From Candidatus Tenebribacter davisii (lineage in GTDB: Bacteria > Cloacimonadota > Cloacimonadia > Cloacimonadales > TCS61), in contig JAVCCH010000194.1 of assembly GCA_030765535.1 (NCBI GenBank), positions 1-64,000 of the forward strand: 64,000 bases of DNA. The letters run 5' to 3'. Under the pieces are notes generated by a model that made no database searches, was not told the origin of the DNA, and saw nothing but the letters and a program-made list of their open reading frames with translations. The position numbers and the translations under genes were made by a program. This document shows, one piece after another, positions 52,442-64,000 of this stretch; the first letter of the stretch is position 1, and every line of letters begins with the position of its first letter.

Positions 52442-55400
52442 TTATTTTCCTCTCGTTATGGGAAAGTCCATTCCCTTTGAATCAACAACCGGATATTGGG
52501 CTTCCTGCCTGTATTTTTTTGTGATCTCAGGCAGTTGTTCTTCAATATAGCTCATCAACTTTCTAACGGTAACTGTTTCTCCTTTGCCTGATGCTTTTCC
52601 ACTCAAACCTTCAAGCAAAGTGTAGGTAAATACTCCATGACCGAGTTCTTTTACTTCTGTCGCGAACTGATCTTTTGACGATGCAGCTACGATATGCACA
52701 CCGGTTGATCTTGATAACTGCGAGAGTGCTTTTCTGTCCTCAAATCCTCTGAATGCTAATAGCACAGCACCCGACTTACAGGCATCTATCAGAACCAAAA
52801 CCTTTTGCGCCTTAATATTTTTAATTGAATTAGATAATTCATCTGATGAAATAGCTTTTTTCTTAACATCCTCTTCTCTTTCAGGATAAGTTAATTCGTG
52901 AGGTATAAAATACCATTTGTCATTTATATTTTCACCATGTCCGGCAAAATAGATCAAGACAGCATCCTGAGGATTTGTATTTTCAAGCTGCTTAAGCTTT
53001 GCTAATATCCCTTCCTTAGTCGCCTGTATATTGTAAACTTCTATAATACTGGTACTTTTAAATAATCCGTTGTCATTGTTCCTGAAAAAATCAGCGATAC
53101 TTTTTGCATCAGGTTCGGCATAATTCAGGTTCAGCGCCGGATTTTTATATTTATTTATTCCAACAGCCAGAACGCTTAATGATACATCCTTTTCAGGTGC
53201 AAGAAGTGTTATGATTATCTCAGACGAATTTGATTCAGTTCTGTCTCTGCTGAAACCGACAGCTTTGAACATATTTAGTCCATCAACCAGTGTGATCGTA
53301 TACGATTTTGTGCTTTCATTTCCTTTGGGAACGATCTTTATTCCTCTTGTTTCTTCACTGATCGCTTTTCCGTTATGATAAAGTTTTATCTCATCAATCC
53401 CACCACCCATATCTTTGGCTGATATTTGAATTGTAACTTCATCTGAAGGAGATTCAGTTCCTGAGACAGGAGATATGATCTTTACTTCAGGAGGTAATGC
53501 AACTCCCAACCTGATATCTGAGACCGGATTTACCTTCTTCCCCTGTAGAACTGAAGCCACATAAGCAGGATTGTAATATTTCTCATAGAAATTATCTATG
53601 CTGTAAACCTTATTACCAACCCTGACATTCAGATATTTAGCTCCATTGAGTGATGCGTTGAAATATCCTTCCGGTGTGATAACGATCCATTCACCGTCAG
53701 AAAATGATACAAAACGGGCGATTTCACTTCCTGTTTCAATATTACTAAAAATTACAGTTTTATCGTGATAGCTACCCGATAAAATTGATTTCCCGTCCGG
53801 ACTGAAAACAAGTGAAGTTATCCAGTGTTTGTGCCTTTTAAACGAAATAACTTCATTTTCTTTCTCAGAATCCCATATGGTGATCAGTCCATCATCATCT
53901 CCTGTTGCGAAATATTTTCTATCGCGTGAAAAAGCAATATTTTCAATATCTTTGTGCCTGCCGTCATAACCTTTTGGTGTGTATGTTTTAATTACTTTCC
54001 CTGTCTCAAGGTCATATAGCTTTATGAAACCTCTAACTCCGACCAGAAATTTATTTTCATCAAATAACTCAAATACTCTTGAGTTTCCTGTCTGCTCATC
54101 TAATTTATAAAGCAGTTTACCTGTCTGAATATTCCATATACCTAATTTCAAATTCGGCCATGCCGATGAAATGATCGCTTTTTTATTATCATTAAACGTT
54201 CTGATCATAGACAAATAGTATTTATTTGATTGTTCCAGTTGAACGGGTGGAGCATTAGGATCTTTTAAATTAATAACATTTAAAAAGTATTCTGACTCTT
54301 CATTTTCTCTTAAATTTTTGAATGCGTAATTTCCATCCTGAGTCACATAATACTCAAGACTTTCGTTACCTTCATTTTTACTATCATATGAAAATAGTGT
54401 TTTATTGAATATAGTGTCGAATATTTTTGTTATTCCGGTTTTCTCATCCTTAATATAAACTTGATCTGCAAACATTCTTCTTCTTACCTTAAAATCTTTT
54501 GTATTTAAATTAGAACCATTAAGTTCTAAGATCATATCATGGGTCAAAATATTTAACTTAGATTCGGCATTATAATAAACTCCGATTGGACTTTTTGCTT
54601 CATCAGCTAATACAGTAATATCGTTATTCTGGATATTATACAGAATAACGGTATAAGATCCATTACAAAATGCAATTATATTTCCGTCATGAGAGACTGA
54701 TGTTGTAGTACATGACGGTGCTCTAAAATAACTTCTTATTCCCGTTTCAATAACTTCCAACCGATCATTCTTTGTATCAAAAATTCCGATCATCCCATTT
54801 TTACCTGCCACTGTCATCCTGCCGTCGTTTCTGAAAGCCAGATCTGAAATTTTGCAGCCAGTTTCGATTTTATGATCAGTTGCCTTGGAAGTTATTATAT
54901 CGATAATTTTCAAATGCTTGTCTATAGTAAGTAGGGCTATTTTGGATCCATCTTTCGACATCGCCCATGAATAGATAAAATTACTTTTGAAGCTGTAACT
55001 GAATTTCGGTTCTTTTCTTTCCAAGCTCCATATATCTATTGAATATGAATCTATCTGATCAATATTAGGATCACCTTCTTCCGTAAATTCATTAGGTTCA
55101 GAATAAGTACTGCCGTAAGAATATGAAATAGTTAATAAGTCATTGGAATCAGGCATAAAACTCAGCCCTTTTTTTATATAATTAAAAATGTGTTGATTTT
55201 CTTTGATTTCAAATTCAGTTTTCAGCTCTGAAGTATTCAGATCATATATTTTAATTTCAATCTGATTATCAACCGCATAGAACTTCTCATCATCAGAAAG
55301 GGCTATACCGTAAATTGCGTAACTAGAATAATGAGATTGAAGTGAATCAATTTTCAGTTTTTCTAAATCGCATATTTTTATTACCCCTCCATCTGCGGTT

Positions 55401-55699
55401 AACAGAAACCTTCCGCTTTTTGAAACTGCCATTGAGTAGGTTTTATAGTTAAAAAAGTTTTTTATTTCTCTTTTTGCAGTCAAATCCCATATAGTCGTCC
55501 CCTGACCTCCGCTTGTTACCATTTGTGTATCATTGGAATTGAATGATACTCGTTCTGCCTCAAGTCCGACTCCTTGTATAAAGACTTCCACCGGTACTAT
55601 CTGCTTTATTGTCTTAACTTTATTTTCCTCTACCTTACTGCATGTTGTAAATATAAAAGAGAAAACGGTTATATAAATTAAAAATTTAGTTAATTTCAT
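52442..55699 (-). CDS. WD40-caspase (C14) lipoprotein
   Basis: Lipobox IFTTCSKVEE; WD40-like repeats; AVLIYFAGHGEN, VLVLIDACKSGAVLL. Confidence 0.9.
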   Translation of the reverse strand: MKLTKFLIYITVFSFIFTTCSKVEENKVKTIKQIVPVEVFIQGVGLEAERVSFNSNDTQMVTSGGQGTTIWDLTAKREIKNFFNYKTYSMAVSKSGRFLLTADGGVIKICDLEKLKIDSLQSHYSSYAIYGIALSDDEKFYAVDNQIEIKIYDLNTSELKTEFEIKENQHIFNYIKKGLSFMPDSNDLLTISYSYGSTYSEPNEFTEEGDPNIDQIDSYSIDIWSLERKEPKFSYSFKSNFIYSWAMSKDGSKIALLTIDKHLKIIDIITSKATDHKIETGCKISDLAFRNDGRMTVAGKNGMIGIFDTKNDRLEVIETGIRSYFRAPSCTTTSVSHDGNIIAFCNGSYTVILYNIQNNDITVLADEAKSPIGVYYNAESKLNILTHDMILELNGSNLNTKDFKVRRRMFADQVYIKDEKTGITKIFDTIFNKTLFSYDSKNEGNESLEYYVTQDGNYAFKNLRENEESEYFLNVINLKDPNAPPVQLEQSNKYYLSMIRTFNDNKKAIISSAWPNLKLGIWNIQTGKLLYKLDEQTGNSRVFELFDENKFLVGVRGFIKLYDLETGKVIKTYTPKGYDGRHKDIENIAFSRDRKYFATGDDDGLITIWDSEKENEVISFKRHKHWITSLVFSPDGKSILSGSYHDKTVIFSNIETGSEIARFVSFSDGEWIVITPEGYFNASLNGAKYLNVRVGNKVYSIDNFYEKYYNPAYVASVLQGKKVNPVSDIRLGVALPPEVKIISPVSGTESPSDEVTIQISAKDMGGGIDEIKLYHNGKAISEETRGIKIVPKGNESTKSYTITLVDGLNMFKAVGFSRDRTESNSSEIIITLLAPEKDVSLSVLAVGINKYKNPALNLNYAEPDAKSIADFFRNNDNGLFKSTSIIEVYNIQATKEGILAKLKQLENTNPQDAVLIYFAGHGENINDKWYFIPHELTYPEREEDVKKKAISSDELSNSIKNIKAQKVLVLIDACKSGAVLLAFRGFEDRKALSQLSRSTGVHIVAASSKDQFATEVKELGHGVFTYTLLEGLSGKASGKGETVTVRKLMSYIEEQLPEITKKYRQEAQYPVVDSKGMDFPITRGK

Positions 55700-55702
55700 A
55701 AA

Positions 55703-58420
55703 TTATTTCCCTCTCGTTATGGGAAAGTCCATTCCCTTTGAATCAACAACAGGATACTGTACTTCCTGCCTATACTTTTTAGTGATCTCAGGAAGCTGTT
55801 CTTCAATATAACTCATCAGCTTTCTTACAGTAACCGTTTCTCCTATACCTGATGCTTTCCCATTAAGGCCTTCTAAAAGCGTATATGTGAAAACTCCATG
55901 ACCTAGTTCTTTCACTTCGGTCGCAAACTGATCTTTTGACGATGCGGCCACGATATGCACACCGGTTGATCTTGATAATTGCGAGAGTGCTTTTCTGTCC
56001 TCAAATCCTCTGAATGCCAATAAAACAGCTCCGGATTTACATGCATCTATCAGAACCAGTATTTTTTGAGCTTTAATATTTTTAATTGCTGTAGCAAGTT
56101 CATCCGATGAAATAGCTTTTTTCTTAACATTCTCTTCTCTTTCAGGATAAGTTAATTCGTGAGGTATAAAATACCATTTGTCATTTATATTCTCACCATG
56201 TCCTGCCAGGTAGATCAAGACAGCATCTTGTGGATTAGTACTTTCAAGCTGTTTAAGCTTTGCTAATATCCCTTCCTTTGTTGCTTGTGTATCGTAAACT
56301 TCTATGACACGGGTACTCTTAAATAATCCATTGTCATTGTTCCTAAAAAAATCAGCGATACTTTTTGCGTCAGGATTAGCGTAATTCAGGTTCAGTGCCG
56401 GATTTTTATATTTATTTATTCCAACAACCAGAACGCTTAATGATACATCCTTTTCAGGAGCAAGAAGCTTTATTATTATCTCGGATGGATTTGATTCAGT
56501 TCTGTCTCTGCTAAATCCGACAGCTCTGAACATATTTAGTCCATCAACCAGTGTGATCGTATACGATTTTGTGCTTTCATTTCCTTTGGGAACGATCTTT
56601 ATTCCTCTTGTTTCTTCACTTACGACCTTTCCGTTATGGTATAACCTTATCTCATCAATTCCTCCACCCATATCTTTAGCAGAGATCTTGATTATGATCT
56701 CTTCATTCCTTACTTCTGAATTTGACTCAGGTGAAATTATCCTGATCTCCGGAGGTAAAGCCACTCCTTGCCTTATATCTGAAACCGGTTCTACTTTCTT
56801 CCCCTGTAGCACTGAAGCTACATAAGCAGGATTGTAATATTTTTCATAAAAATTGTCTATTGAGTATACTTTATTTCCAATTCTTACATTTATATATTTT
56901 GCACCATTCGTAGAGGCATTAAAATAACCTTCCGGTGTTATAACGATCCATTCTCCATCTGAAAAAGCATAAAATTTAGCGACTTCGGTTTTATTAACTT
57001 TATCCTGAACCTGAATATGGTTTATCTCCTCTTTAAAATAGAATAATTCACTTTTATAATGTTTAAGATATATCAAAGGGCTGATTGCGTCATAGTAGAA
57101 TTCACTTTCTTTAAATGACTCCTTAAAAAATTCCTGCGGTATTTTTTTATAAAATTCATCAGGATCTTTATATATCCAATTGTAGTCTTTATTCTTATAT
57201 ATTTTGTATGTACTATTGTAAAAATTAAATATTTCTAAATCGGCTGTTGACAAATTCCAGATATTGTAGTTATAATAAATTTTAAGTTGTGTACCAACAT
57301 AGTTAAAACTTTTCTCAATATCCAAAAGTCGTCCATTTGCATAAGCTTGGTCCCGAAAAACTATTGGTTTCATACCGAATTCACGTTCTACTTCACCTGA
57401 AATTTTATCATAAAGTATAATATTAGCATTTTTATGACTGACTATGACTTGTCCCTCATTAGTAATAACCAGTGATTCAAAAGTGTTAACATTCTCGAAA
57501 AACAATGTTTTTTGTTTATAAATTCCGTTTTGCATAAAATCATAAATACTTAGTTCTATATTCGATATCCATTCCCAAGCCTTTTCTCCCTTTTCGGTAA
57601 AACTATCACGATTTAAAACTACTGAGTTGTTCTGCAGAACGGAAAATTTTTTACATTGTTTACCTGGAACACTATTTATGACAGCACCATTATTCAGATC
57701 ATATCTTAATAGTAGTGGATTATCCATATAATACCTATTCTCGTAAATATATTTTAAGGCAGCATCCACTTTTAATAGATCATGATGAACTCGTCCTTTT
57801 ATAATACCTTTTTTCTTTATAGTTAAATTTTCATCATAGATCACATAACCTGTTTCTCCAAGTTTTACTTCTTCGGTGTTGCTGAAAAATATCCCAAAAT
57901 AATCATAACCAAGATTTGTTAAATTAGAACAATCAGAATCATCAGTTTTTTCTGGAAATTTAATTTCCGATCCATCTTCAATATCATAAATACTTACTCC
58001 GGATGAACCATCATCAACATAAAAATACTTAAGATTTTTTGTGATTGATATTTTCCCATTATTTTCGATTTTAGGAAAGGTAAATGTCTTTAGTTTTTCT
58101 CCGTTAACATTATAAATCTCAGCTAGCTTTTTTCCGTTAATAATAATAAACCGTTCATTGTCCAAAAAATTAGTTACTCTACCATTAATTTTCAATGTTC
58201 TTAATTCTCGTCCTTCTGATATTTCCCAGATTTTTTTATTATTCTTTCCTGAACTTACCAAATATTTACCGTCCTGAGAAACAGCAAATGAATATGCACC
58301 ATCAGTATGCCCTGTTTGAACAAATATTTCCGGAATTTCTGTAGTTTCGCTTTTTAATAAAGTAAAAGACAGCAGAAGTAAAAACAACAATAATTTCGTT
58401 AAAATAATACGGTTATGCAT
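55703..58420 (-). CDS. Exported caspase (C14) protein with divergent beta-propeller N-terminus
   Basis: Signal peptide; AVLIYLAGHGEN, ILVLIDACKSGAVLL; only the first WD40-like repeat is recognisable. Confidence 0.88.
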   Translation of the reverse strand: MHNRIILTKLLLFLLLLSFTLLKSETTEIPEIFVQTGHTDGAYSFAVSQDGKYLVSSGKNNKKIWEISEGRELRTLKINGRVTNFLDNERFIIINGKKLAEIYNVNGEKLKTFTFPKIENNGKISITKNLKYFYVDDGSSGVSIYDIEDGSEIKFPEKTDDSDCSNLTNLGYDYFGIFFSNTEEVKLGETGYVIYDENLTIKKKGIIKGRVHHDLLKVDAALKYIYENRYYMDNPLLLRYDLNNGAVINSVPGKQCKKFSVLQNNSVVLNRDSFTEKGEKAWEWISNIELSIYDFMQNGIYKQKTLFFENVNTFESLVITNEGQVIVSHKNANIILYDKISGEVEREFGMKPIVFRDQAYANGRLLDIEKSFNYVGTQLKIYYNYNIWNLSTADLEIFNFYNSTYKIYKNKDYNWIYKDPDEFYKKIPQEFFKESFKESEFYYDAISPLIYLKHYKSELFYFKEEINHIQVQDKVNKTEVAKFYAFSDGEWIVITPEGYFNASTNGAKYINVRIGNKVYSIDNFYEKYYNPAYVASVLQGKKVEPVSDIRQGVALPPEIRIISPESNSEVRNEEIIIKISAKDMGGGIDEIRLYHNGKVVSEETRGIKIVPKGNESTKSYTITLVDGLNMFRAVGFSRDRTESNPSEIIIKLLAPEKDVSLSVLVVGINKYKNPALNLNYANPDAKSIADFFRNNDNGLFKSTRVIEVYDTQATKEGILAKLKQLESTNPQDAVLIYLAGHGENINDKWYFIPHELTYPEREENVKKKAISSDELATAIKNIKAQKILVLIDACKSGAVLLAFRGFEDRKALSQLSRSTGVHIVAASSKDQFATEVKELGHGVFTYTLLEGLNGKASGIGETVTVRKLMSYIEEQLPEITKKYRQEVQYPVVDSKGMDFPITRGK

Positions 58421-58497
58421 AATATCTCCTTAAAATCTGGTTGTCAAATACCCAACAACAGTAATTTAATAGCATAAAAGTTAACAATAATATGATT

Positions 58498-58761
58498 TTA
58501 TAACTTCCCGCTACTCAACGGAAAGTCCATTCCCTTTGAATCAACAACAGGATACTGTACTTCCTGCCTATACTTTTTAGTGATCTCAGGAAGTTGTTCC
58601 TCAATATAGCTCATCAGTTTTCTGACTGTAACTGTTTCTCCTTTGCCTGATGCTTTCCCATTAAGACCTTTACCCGATAAAATATACTTCCCGCCGGCTA
58701 TAATTTTAACGGCATTAGTATAGCCGAAGCTACCGCTTATGTGACCCATCTGCACAATCAT
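58498..58761 (-). pseudogene. Internally deleted fourth WD40-caspase paralog (N-terminal WD40 bit joined to caspase C-tail)
   Basis: MIVQMGHISGSFGYTNAVKIIAGGKYILSGK joined to GLNGKASGKGETVTVRKLMSYIEEQLPEITKKYRQEVQYPVVDSKGMDFPLSSGKL. Confidence 0.8.
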
Positions 58762-60965: not shown

Positions 60966-61052
60966 CTCATAACAACTCAAAAAAAACTTGACTCTTCCCT
61001 GAAAATTCTCATATTTGACTCAGTATTTCTCAAAGATTCTCATTTTTACTCA
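60966..61052. promoter_or_regulatory. Candidate MraZ operator: TGAGN boxes at about 10-bp spacing
   Basis: CTCA (TGAG on minus) starts at 61008, 61019, 61029, 61039, 61049, plus a pair at 60966 and 60976. Confidence 0.7.
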
Positions 61053-61070
61053 AATGATAAGGAGGATGTG

Positions 61071-61511
61071 ATGTCAGGTGAATTCTTAGGCACTTTTACT
61101 AACTCGGTCAATAAACTTAAATGGATCACTATTCCTGCTGTATTCAAGAAGAAACTTGATCCTCAGATAGAGCAGACCGTTATTATCACGCTAGGACCTA
61201 ATACAGATATAGCGATCTATCCGTTAGATAACTGGAAAGATAAAATTGAAAAGCTGAAAAACGGTACTGATCGTGATAAGAGGCTGCTTGCCAATTTACG
61301 TACATTTGCTTCTTCCGAACAGAAAATTGAGGCGAACGGCAGAATTAAGATAGGCTCTGAACTTTTAGAGATTGCAAATATCAAAGATAAGGTCATAGTT
61401 AAAGGATCAGGAAATTACATTTCTGTATGGAGTCCGGAAAATTACGAACAATTCCGTCAGAAACGTCTGGAAGAGCACAGAGAGCTCTTTAATTCTTTGG
61501 ATTATCAATAA
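61071..61511 (+). CDS. mraZ: Transcriptional regulator MraZ
   Basis: FLGTFTNSVNKLKWITIPAVFKKKL; followed by rsmH; AAGGAGG 5 nt upstream of ATG 61071. Confidence 0.92.
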   Translation: MSGEFLGTFTNSVNKLKWITIPAVFKKKLDPQIEQTVIITLGPNTDIAIYPLDNWKDKIEKLKNGTDRDKRLLANLRTFASSEQKIEANGRIKIGSELLEIANIKDKVIVKGSGNYISVWSPENYEQFRQKRLEEHRELFNSLDYQ

Positions 61512-62443
61512 TGAAAGAATATCATGTTCCGGTATTATTGCCTGAATGTTTAGAAGCTTTAGATATTAGGGATAGCAAAGTTTATGTAGATGCCACCTTT
61601 GGAGGTGGAGGACATTCTGCCAAAATACTGGAAAGTGGAAAAGATATCCGATTATTCGGTTTAGATCAAGATCCTGATTCCATTAAACAAAGTTTAGTTC
61701 TGCAGGAAAAATATCCTGAAAAGTTTGTGATGATCAAAGAAAATTTTGCCAATCTAAGAACTGGACTTGCACTTGAAAGAATAAAAAAAGTTGATGGAAT
61801 ACTATTTGACTTGGGTGTTTCTTCTCATCAGATAAATGATCCGGCGCGAGGTTTCAGTTTTCAATATGATGGTAGCCTGGATATGAGAATGGATCAAAGT
61901 TCAGACCTTACAGCAGCCGATGTTGTGAATAATTATTCATTTGAAGAACTTGCTAAAATATTCAGAGAATTCGGTGAAGAAAAAGAGGCTGCAAGGATCG
62001 CAAATTGTATTATTTTAGAAAGATCAAAAGAGCAGATCAAAACAACTCTGCATTTAGCTAAGATCATTGAGAACTGTATCGTTTCCAAAAAGAGCATTAA
62101 AGCTAAGGCCAGAATATTCCAGGCTTTAAGGATCTATATCAATAAAGAGATGGATGTTTTGCGAACTGCTATAGAAGATTCTATCAAGATGTTAAATCCT
62201 GATGGCAGGATTGTTGTAATCTCGTATCATAGCTTGGAAGATAGAATTATCAAGAATATTTTTAAATTCGAAGCTAAATCTTGTATTTGTCCCCCGGAAT
62301 TCCCAAGGTGTGTATGTGATAAGATCTCAACAATAGAGATCTTATCACGAAAGCCTATTATTCCCACCTTACAAGAAATTGAAAATAACCCGCGAGCCAG
62401 AAGCGCAAAACTGAGAATAGCCCGAAAAAGGAGTGTTTTATGA
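61511..62443 (+). CDS. rsmH: 16S rRNA (cytosine(1402)-N4)-methyltransferase
   Basis: HVPVLLPECLEAL, VDATFGGGGHSAKIL, DGILFDLGVSSHQINDPARGFSF. Confidence 0.97.
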   Translation: MKEYHVPVLLPECLEALDIRDSKVYVDATFGGGGHSAKILESGKDIRLFGLDQDPDSIKQSLVLQEKYPEKFVMIKENFANLRTGLALERIKKVDGILFDLGVSSHQINDPARGFSFQYDGSLDMRMDQSSDLTAADVVNNYSFEELAKIFREFGEEKEAARIANCIILERSKEQIKTTLHLAKIIENCIVSKKSIKAKARIFQALRIYINKEMDVLRTAIEDSIKMLNPDGRIVVISYHSLEDRIIKNIFKFEAKSCICPPEFPRCVCDKISTIEILSRKPIIPTLQEIENNPRARSAKLRIARKRSVL

Positions 62444-62769
62444 AATGGAAATTTATTGTAATTGTTTTTTTAATTTTTGCTTCATTCTTTTGTCATTATA
62501 GTAATAAACACAAAATCATAGTTTACGGCCGCAGTCTTAATGGATCTCAAGAACTATTACAGGCTGAAAAAGTTATTAATCTGGATCTTGTTACAACTAA
62601 CAATAAACTTAGTTCTATGGATAGGATCCAGCAATTAGCTTTTGAGAACCTGAGTATGTTTTATCCAACAAACAATGATAATGTGCATAACATCAAGTTT
62701 AACAATAAGAAAGAAACATTCCGGTTAATAGATTACATTGTCCCTTCTGCTGAAGCATTAACACGATGA
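62440..62769 (+). CDS. FtsL-like short bitopic membrane protein
   Basis: Single N-terminal TM, position between rsmH and ftsI. Confidence 0.6.
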   Translation: MKWKFIVIVFLIFASFFCHYSNKHKIIVYGRSLNGSQELLQAEKVINLDLVTTNNKLSSMDRIQQLAFENLSMFYPTNNDNVHNIKFNNKKETFRLIDYIVPSAEALTR

Positions 62770-62775
62770 ATTATT

Positions 62776-62806
62776 GCTCATTCTTTATTGAATGAGCTTT
62801 TTTTTT
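62776..62806 (+). terminator. Terminator-like hairpin directly abutting the ftsI ATG
   Basis: GCTCATTC-tttatt-GAATGAGC-T9. Confidence 0.8.
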
Positions 62807-64000
62807 ATGAATTCCAGAATAAAATTATTAGTAATTTTCAACATTATAATCATTATTATTTGGATAAGTTATCTTTTTTCTATTCAAATATTAGATGCAC
62901 ATCATCTTAAATCAGCTGTACAGATCCGTCAAAATCCTTCCAAAGAAATCTTGATCCCTAACAGAGGAAATATTTATGATCGTAATAATAGTCTGCTTGT
63001 AAGTTCAATAAAATATTACCAGTTAGACATTGATAGACGTGTAATAGTTAAAAATTGTAAAAAGAAAACAGATGTTAATCCAGCTGATATTTTTGCAAAA
63101 ATTACTCAGATAATATCTGAGAATAGTGACGTTAAGAAAAAAGTTCTGCTCAAACGTTTAAATAAAAATCCAATTAATTCAAGTGTTTACATTGCAACTG
63201 ATATTTCTGAAAATCAGCTTCATATCATTAAACAAGAATTTGCAAAAGAAAATATCAAAGGTCTCGTAACGTCTTTCAGTAAGATCAAGCGTTCTTATCC
63301 TCATGACAAACTTGGAGCAAACTTCATGGGGATCATTGATGATAAATGTAAAAATAATTCCGGGAATGTAATTTATACTACGCATGGAAAGAATGGAATT
63401 GAAGCTACCTATAATAGTCAACTTTCTGGAGAAGTCGGCTGGAGAGAGATGATATATGATGCCAACAATCAAATTATTCCGCTATTATTTCTCAAAGAAA
63501 AATCAGCTCAACCCGGACAATCGATCTATCTCACTATTGATAAAAGAATTCAGGAAATTGTAGAAGAAAATTTATTGATCGGATTGAAAGAATACAAAGC
63601 CAAAAATGCCATCGGAATTGTTATGGATCCTAACACAGCCGAGATCCTTGCTCTGGCAGGTATTACAAAGGATCACGAAAAAAAATCAGCGAAAGAGCTG
63701 CGTTCCGTTACCGATATTGCAGTTTCTTTTATGTTCGAACCGGGCTCTACCTTAAAACCGATAACAGCTTTACTGGCTTTAGAAAAAGGAATTTATAACC
63801 CTACAGATAAGATCGACTGCAAAAATTACCACCTGGAGTATGAATCTGAAGAAAGGATAATTAAGGATGACCACAAATTCAAGACTTTAAGTTTTAAAGA
63901 TATTATTGCCTATTCCAGTAATGTAGGCATAAGTAAAATAGTAGAAAAGATTGGAAGTAAGTTACTTTATGAAAGAATGATCGCAATGGGCTTCGGGCAT
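62807..64000 (+). CDS. ftsI: Penicillin-binding protein 2/FtsI-like transpeptidase (3' end cut by window)
   Basis: MNSRIKLLVIFNIIIIIWISYLFSIQILDAHHLKSA...ILIPNRGNIYDRNN; FEPGSTLKP (SxxK) and YSSNVGISK (SxN). Confidence 0.92.
   Translation, partial: MNSRIKLLVIFNIIIIIIWISYLFSIQILDAHHLKSAVQIRQNPSKEILIPNRGNIYDRNNSLLVSSIKYYQLDIDRRVIVKNCKKKTDVNPADIFAKITQIISENSDVKKKVLLKRLNKNPINSSVYIATDISENQLHIIKQEFAKENIKGLVTSFSKIKRSYPHDKLGANFMGIIDDKCKNNSGNVIYTTHGKNGIEATYNSQLSGEVGWREMIYDANNQIIPLLFLKEKSAQPGQSIYLTIDKRIQEIVEENLLIGLKEYKAKNAIGIVMDPNTAEILALAGITKDHEKKSAKELRSVTDIAVSFMFEPGSTLKPITALLALEKGIYNPTDKIDCKNYHLEYESEERIIKDDHKFKTLSFKDIIAYSSNVGISKIVEKIGSKLLYERMIAMGFGH

Follow-up and report, generated by a model that had tools for sequence, protein, structure and literature searches.

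A putative re-specified MraZ operator of CTCA boxes at the mraZ promoter of Candidatus Tenebribacter davisii

Few regulator-operator pairs in bacteria are as conserved as MraZ and its DNA box. The MraZ sites known so far consist of GTG direct repeats, which have a 10-bp period and lie over the −10/start region (PMC7761207; PMC5282649; PMC8475190); GTG repeats make up the sites of E. coli, B. subtilis and the mycoplasmas (PMC7761207), and the Mollicutes site reads (AAAGTGKN3)3 (PMC5282649; PMC8475190). For comparison, we used a reference set of 80 genomes from outside the phylum Cloacimonadota (79 bacteria, nearly all of different families, and E. coli), and fitted an unsupervised model of three 10-bp units, with no prior motif, to the regions upstream of mraZ. 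The reference set gave AAGTGGnAAA on the coding strand, in agreement with the known GTG-type sites, and classical GTGG boxes were found on the coding strand of the reference genomes. The same procedure returned kTCA and CTCA for Cloacimonadota. The fits reached 14.6–19.9 bits per sequence, as compared with 0.3–3.8 for shuffled sequences. A literature search found no published MraZ site from the Cloacimonadota.

The window, i.e., the whole stretch of 64,000 nucleotides analyzed here, carries mraZ near its end. Among named organisms, Ca. Tenebribacter burtonii is the nearest to the Ca. Cloacimonadota genome from which it comes. The first-pass annotation had listed seven copies of TGAG upstream of the gene, which read CTCA on the mraZ strand, and all seven were found at, or immediately beside, the positions proposed. 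Five of them form a contiguous array with periods of 11, 10, 10 and 10 bp (Table 1). The remaining two had been described as upstream copies at ten-bp spacing; they lie 10 bp apart and at a distance of 32 bp from the main array, and therefore form a separate pair, which flanks the −35 element TTGACT. Overlap of the array with a plausible promoter was also borne out. Box 1 overlaps the probable −10 element, and the offset between TTGAC and the array is kept throughout the phylum. Box 2 is near the expected start site and boxes 3–5 occupy the predicted mraZ leader, the array ending 6 bp ahead of the Shine-Dalgarno sequence. Thus, as in classical operators, at least three direct repeats with a 10-bp period lie over the mraZ promoter and start region.

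Nowhere else in the 64-kb window does a 4-mer recur four or more times in a chain with 10/11-bp spacing. A five-copy CTCA chain has a chance expectation of about 5e-7, and no 4-mer repeated fivefold at period 10 was found in 100 shuffles. In the genome to which the window belongs, the pattern CTCA-N6-CTCA-N6-CTCA matched the mraZ site, with two overlapping matches, and one stray site.

Table 1. Features of the mraZ promoter, its array and the downstream genes (window positions)
Feature	Coordinates	Strand	Remarks
Upstream auxiliary box CTCA	60966..60969	+	22 bp before TTGACT; C[T/C]CA at −22 in 5/24 aligned family members
Upstream auxiliary box CTCA	60976..60979	+	12 bp before TTGACT; C[T/C]CA at −12 in 10/24 aligned family members
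−35 element TTGACT	60988..60993	+	Followed by 16-bp spacer; TTGAC at fixed offset from array phylum-wide
Operator box 1 CTCA	61008..61011	+	Overlaps −10; relatives CTCA 19/24, CCCA 2/24
Probable −10 element CATATT	61010..61015	+	Consensus match only
Operator box 2 CTCA	61019..61022	+	Around expected start site; relatives CTCA (11), CCCA (8), CCCG (4) of 24
Operator box 3 CTCA	61029..61032	+	24/24 aligned relatives
Operator box 4 CTCA	61039..61042	+	24/24 aligned relatives
Operator box 5 CTCA	61049..61052	+	24/24 aligned relatives
Shine-Dalgarno AAGGAGG	61059..61065	+	Sequence
mraZ, 146 aa	61071..61511	+	Start ATG 61071; Pfam MraZ match, predicted fold
N-half recognition motif NKLKW (residues 14–18)	61110..61124	+	Replaces D-x-K-G-R
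C-half motif EANGR	61329..61343	+	Usual D-x-Q-G-R; GR retained
rsmH (mraW), second operon gene	61511..62443	+	Pfam Methyltransf_5, 360 bits
Small ORF at ftsL position	62440..62769	+	Position and size only
ftsI-like transpeptidase	62792..64000	+	Extends past window end; position and translation

CTCA boxes were present upstream of mraZ in every host-family relative with an orthologous MraZ for which enough sequence upstream was available. Alignment of the upstream regions of relatives, a check that had been proposed for the array, was possible on TTGAC for 24 family members, from which the box-by-box counts in Table 1 are derived; the periodicity is present, and the spacer bases vary, unlike boxes 3–5. 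We also searched entire genomes of the family, without bias as to location, for CTCA-N6-CTCA-N6-CTCA. The pattern was present in 26 of 39 genomes and in all 26 it adjoins mraZ upstream, on the mraZ strand. Away from mraZ only three stray matches occurred across all 39 genomes, and a backward control pattern gave a single match in the same set. Thirteen genomes lack the pattern: nine, several of them incomplete, in which no mraZ could be detected, three with a divergent MraZ (22–26% identity) and one with irregularly spaced CTCA boxes. The divergent proteins, which belong to two genera, have neither the motif NKxKW nor a five-box array upstream of their genes, and possibly reflect replacement of the ortholog. 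In three genomes of one genus, about 130 bp of dispersed repeat, matched 8–24 times per genome, separates an intact array from the mraZ start. Such an insert is tolerable for an operator that acts at the promoter, but it alters the leader.

Arrays with a 10-bp period at a fixed offset from TTGAC were also found in other families and orders of Cloacimonadota, the distance from array to start codon ranging from 2 to over 200 bp. The in-register boxes of class-level outgroup families were TTCA (19), GTCA (18), GGCA (11) and CTCA (2); those of the other families of the order were GTCA (134), CTCA (61), TTCA (14) and GGCA (6), with a few others; and those of the host family were CTCA in 98 of 98 cases, in a count that leaves CCCA aside. 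The core C[T/C]CA is fixed only in the host family, where T-rich spacers precede CTCA. The array had been interpreted as a change of the third base, from TGGGN to TGAGN. Neither a local nor a single change fits these counts well; they show a phylum-wide series of GGCA, GTCA, TTCA and CTCA. No GTG/GTGG core was detected in the host family, in which the mean longest GTGG chain was 0.18, as in shuffled sequences (0.18).

The array had first been read on the minus strand, and that reading is probably wrong. On the coding strand, where the classical GTGG lies, the intermediates suggest a descent from GTGGnA through TGGCA and TGTCA to CTCA. We consider this same-strand descent the likelier course, with reasonable assurance, because GGCA and GTCA occur in register within the phylum and a series of GTGGCA and TGGCA boxes occurs on the coding strand in another phylum. 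It is less likely, although it would be compatible with our main explanation, that the classical TGGGN was turned to the other strand, giving TGRGN on the template. The fitted host-family motif does resemble the canonical one better as its reverse complement (8.25) than on the same strand (7.30), and relatives frequently have CCCA, which complements TGGG exactly, as box 2. The remaining groups of Cloacimonadota, however, are more similar on the same strand (8.05 versus 7.64 and 7.90 versus 7.71 for the opposite strand). The helical phase of the boxes relative to the −35 element does not separate the two orientations.

The window MraZ scored 50.4 bits against Pfam PF02381 (cut-off 23), and belongs to the family by that measure. 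Its matches to the NCBIfam equivalog models were below the cut-offs (TIGR00242: 54.8 versus 98.35), scores that mark it, as judged from sequence, as a divergent member. An AlphaFold2 model (pLDDT 91) showed the tandem swapped-hairpin AbrB-like fold, with TM-scores (query) of 0.74–0.78 to 9r4j, 9qlg and 1n0e; the best matches were to M. genitalium MraZ, in crystal and promoter-complex structures, the 4-box complex 9sz7 among them. The motifs D-x-K-G-R (N-half) and D-x-x-G-R (C-half), a conserved feature of the family that is outside the curated definition of MraZ, are both missing from the window protein, in which only GR of the second is retained. The gene order is that of the dcw cluster: mraZ comes first, followed by rsmH, by a small ORF placed where ftsL would be and by an ftsI-like ORF. 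Elsewhere in the window (52442–58761, minus strand), two neighboring caspase-like proteins, the first with a Peptidase C14 match, are nearly identical toward their C termini, and their last part recurs in a short ORF (58498–58761); this looks like tandem duplication with decay.

In the 80 reference genomes the N-half motif of MraZ is conserved at D (97%), K (96%), G (85%) and R (100%), and the C-half motif at D (97%), G (93%) and R (98%). In Cloacimonadota, D of the N-half is replaced by T/S, H or N, and K by R, Q, L or another residue. Nearly all groups other than the host family have lost one residue of the GR turn, of which R remains; the host family has a full-length turn that reads K-W. 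In the C-half, GR is kept and E replaces D. All Cloacimonadota MraZ proteins form one clade, and the correlation between protein and box within the phylum therefore counts once, as a single event at its base. Lys-less MraZ is rare outside Cloacimonadota. In the phylum with GTGGCA and TGGCA boxes, D11 is replaced by T/S throughout and K13 (E. coli numbering) is present or absent: a G precedes TGG in 54 of 63 boxes of members with K, giving GTGG, versus 4 of 34 boxes of members without it, which mostly have A/T before TGG and TGGCA boxes. In a further phylum, a K-to-N member has AAATGGA boxes and its K-bearing sister has GTGG. The third case is an order in which members with a K-to-Q change, their motif being D-K-Q-G-R or similar, seem to have lost any recognizable GTGG array, and members with K have GTGG boxes.

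When all scored boxes are taken together, those of K-bearing proteins have the first G in 205 of 230 cases and those of proteins without K in 4 of 24. An independent-pairs test of K13 against the first G gave 2–3 pairs, all or nearly all concordant, which are too few for significance; with so few independent events, the link is a strong lead and no proof. We tentatively suggest a one-letter recognition code, which we hold to be almost as likely right as wrong: K13, the Lys of D-x-K-G-R, would read the first G of GTGG, a base that becomes free to vary once the Lys is lost. In Cloacimonadota, the disappearance of D11, K13 and the N-half GR turn may then have let the operator shift from GTGG to kTCA and, in the host family, where a Trp was gained at R15, on to CTCA. 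A tight link between the change of R15 to KW and CTCA was also considered, and is weakened by several families that have R and no W and also use CTCA boxes; KW thus accompanies the strict CTCA of the host family and is not required for it. As to D11, C is found at box position 7 in 6 of 176 boxes with D and in 45 of 69 with T. An association of D11 loss with this C is suggestive; the independent pairs give it no firm support, and one D-to-S lineage has no C.

What we observed, namely the array, its position and conservation, its exclusivity to mraZ and the change in the protein, is very probably explained by a re-specified MraZ operator through which mraZ-rsmH-ftsL-ftsI would be autoregulated. 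An MraZ-type operator of altered specificity had been suggested for this site, and conservation, exclusivity to mraZ and the changed MraZ motif strongly support that suggestion at the level of comparative sequence. Re-specification is favored because the N-half motif is lost and because loss of the Lys tracks loss of the first G in other lineages; we infer that the motif change and the box change are causally linked. An MraZ ring would sit on the five boxes along one face of the helix, one box per turn, cover the −10 element and the start site, and repress transcription by occlusion, with the auxiliary pair upstream of the −35 element accompanying the main operator. The classical working principle would be kept, while the core would have passed from AAGTGGnAAA to (T)kTCA in Cloacimonadota and to strict C[T/C]CA in the host family, alongside the dismantling of the N-half D-x-K-G-R, which in the window MraZ has become NKLKW.

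It is improbable that another ring-forming or cooperative regulator, rather than MraZ, reads the array. The degenerate N-half motif might mean that MraZ has lost DNA binding, but the array occurs only at mraZ, is missing where an orthologous MraZ is missing or divergent, and has the repeat structure, period and position of classical MraZ operators; moreover, the protein retains GR in its C-half, and its predicted fold resembles that of MraZ in promoter complexes. Still more improbable is an RNA element, in which CUCA repeats in the mraZ leader would be bound by an RNA-binding protein or would regulate translation. Boxes 3–5 do lie within the predicted leader beside the Shine-Dalgarno sequence, but box 1 is on the −10 element and the auxiliary pair is upstream of the −35 element, and these would thus be untranscribed from the predicted promoter; also, the position of the array is tied to TTGAC and not to the start codon, and its period is that of the DNA helix. 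That the array consists merely of phased T-tracts, conferring intrinsic curvature on an AT-rich promoter, is very improbable in spite of the T-rich spacers of family members, as the information resides in the letters C-T-C-A (about 1.2–2.1 bits each, versus less than 0.7 bits for the T spacers) and GTCA/CTCA is kept in other families that have no T-tracts.

A re-specified MraZ operator would have consequences beyond this locus. A whole phylum in which both MraZ and the box have changed, with apparent intermediates elsewhere, is a natural experiment on the reading of tandem boxes by a ring-shaped repressor, and on how the specificity of a regulator-operator pair can change without breaking the control of cell division. 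The code, if true, predicts a specific contact, from K13 to the first G. Also, anyone who looks for operators by GTGGG will overlook the control exerted by MraZ in Cloacimonadota.

Compared with described systems, the window array is similar to mraZ1p/Pmra of E. coli in that 10-bp direct repeats lie over the promoter and start, mraZ is first in the dcw cluster, and the gene codes for an MraZ-family protein. In E. coli, however, the coding strand carries three boxes that read GTGGG, and MraZ has the motif DSKGR, whereas the window has five C[T/C]CA boxes with an upstream pair, and NKLKW. As in PmraBc of Burkholderia cenocepacia, which has four repeats (PMC7761207), repeats lie downstream of the −10 element and overlap the start site; the Burkholderia site is a GTG motif (PMC7761207), and the window has no GTG array. 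The 10-bp repeats and the MraZ fold are shared with the Mollicutes site and M. genitalium MraZ (9r4j, 9sz7), the protein being ring-shaped there and its fold predicted here, but M. genitalium combines a GTG core with the Lys-bearing motif DNKNR, and the window has neither the GTG core nor the Lys.
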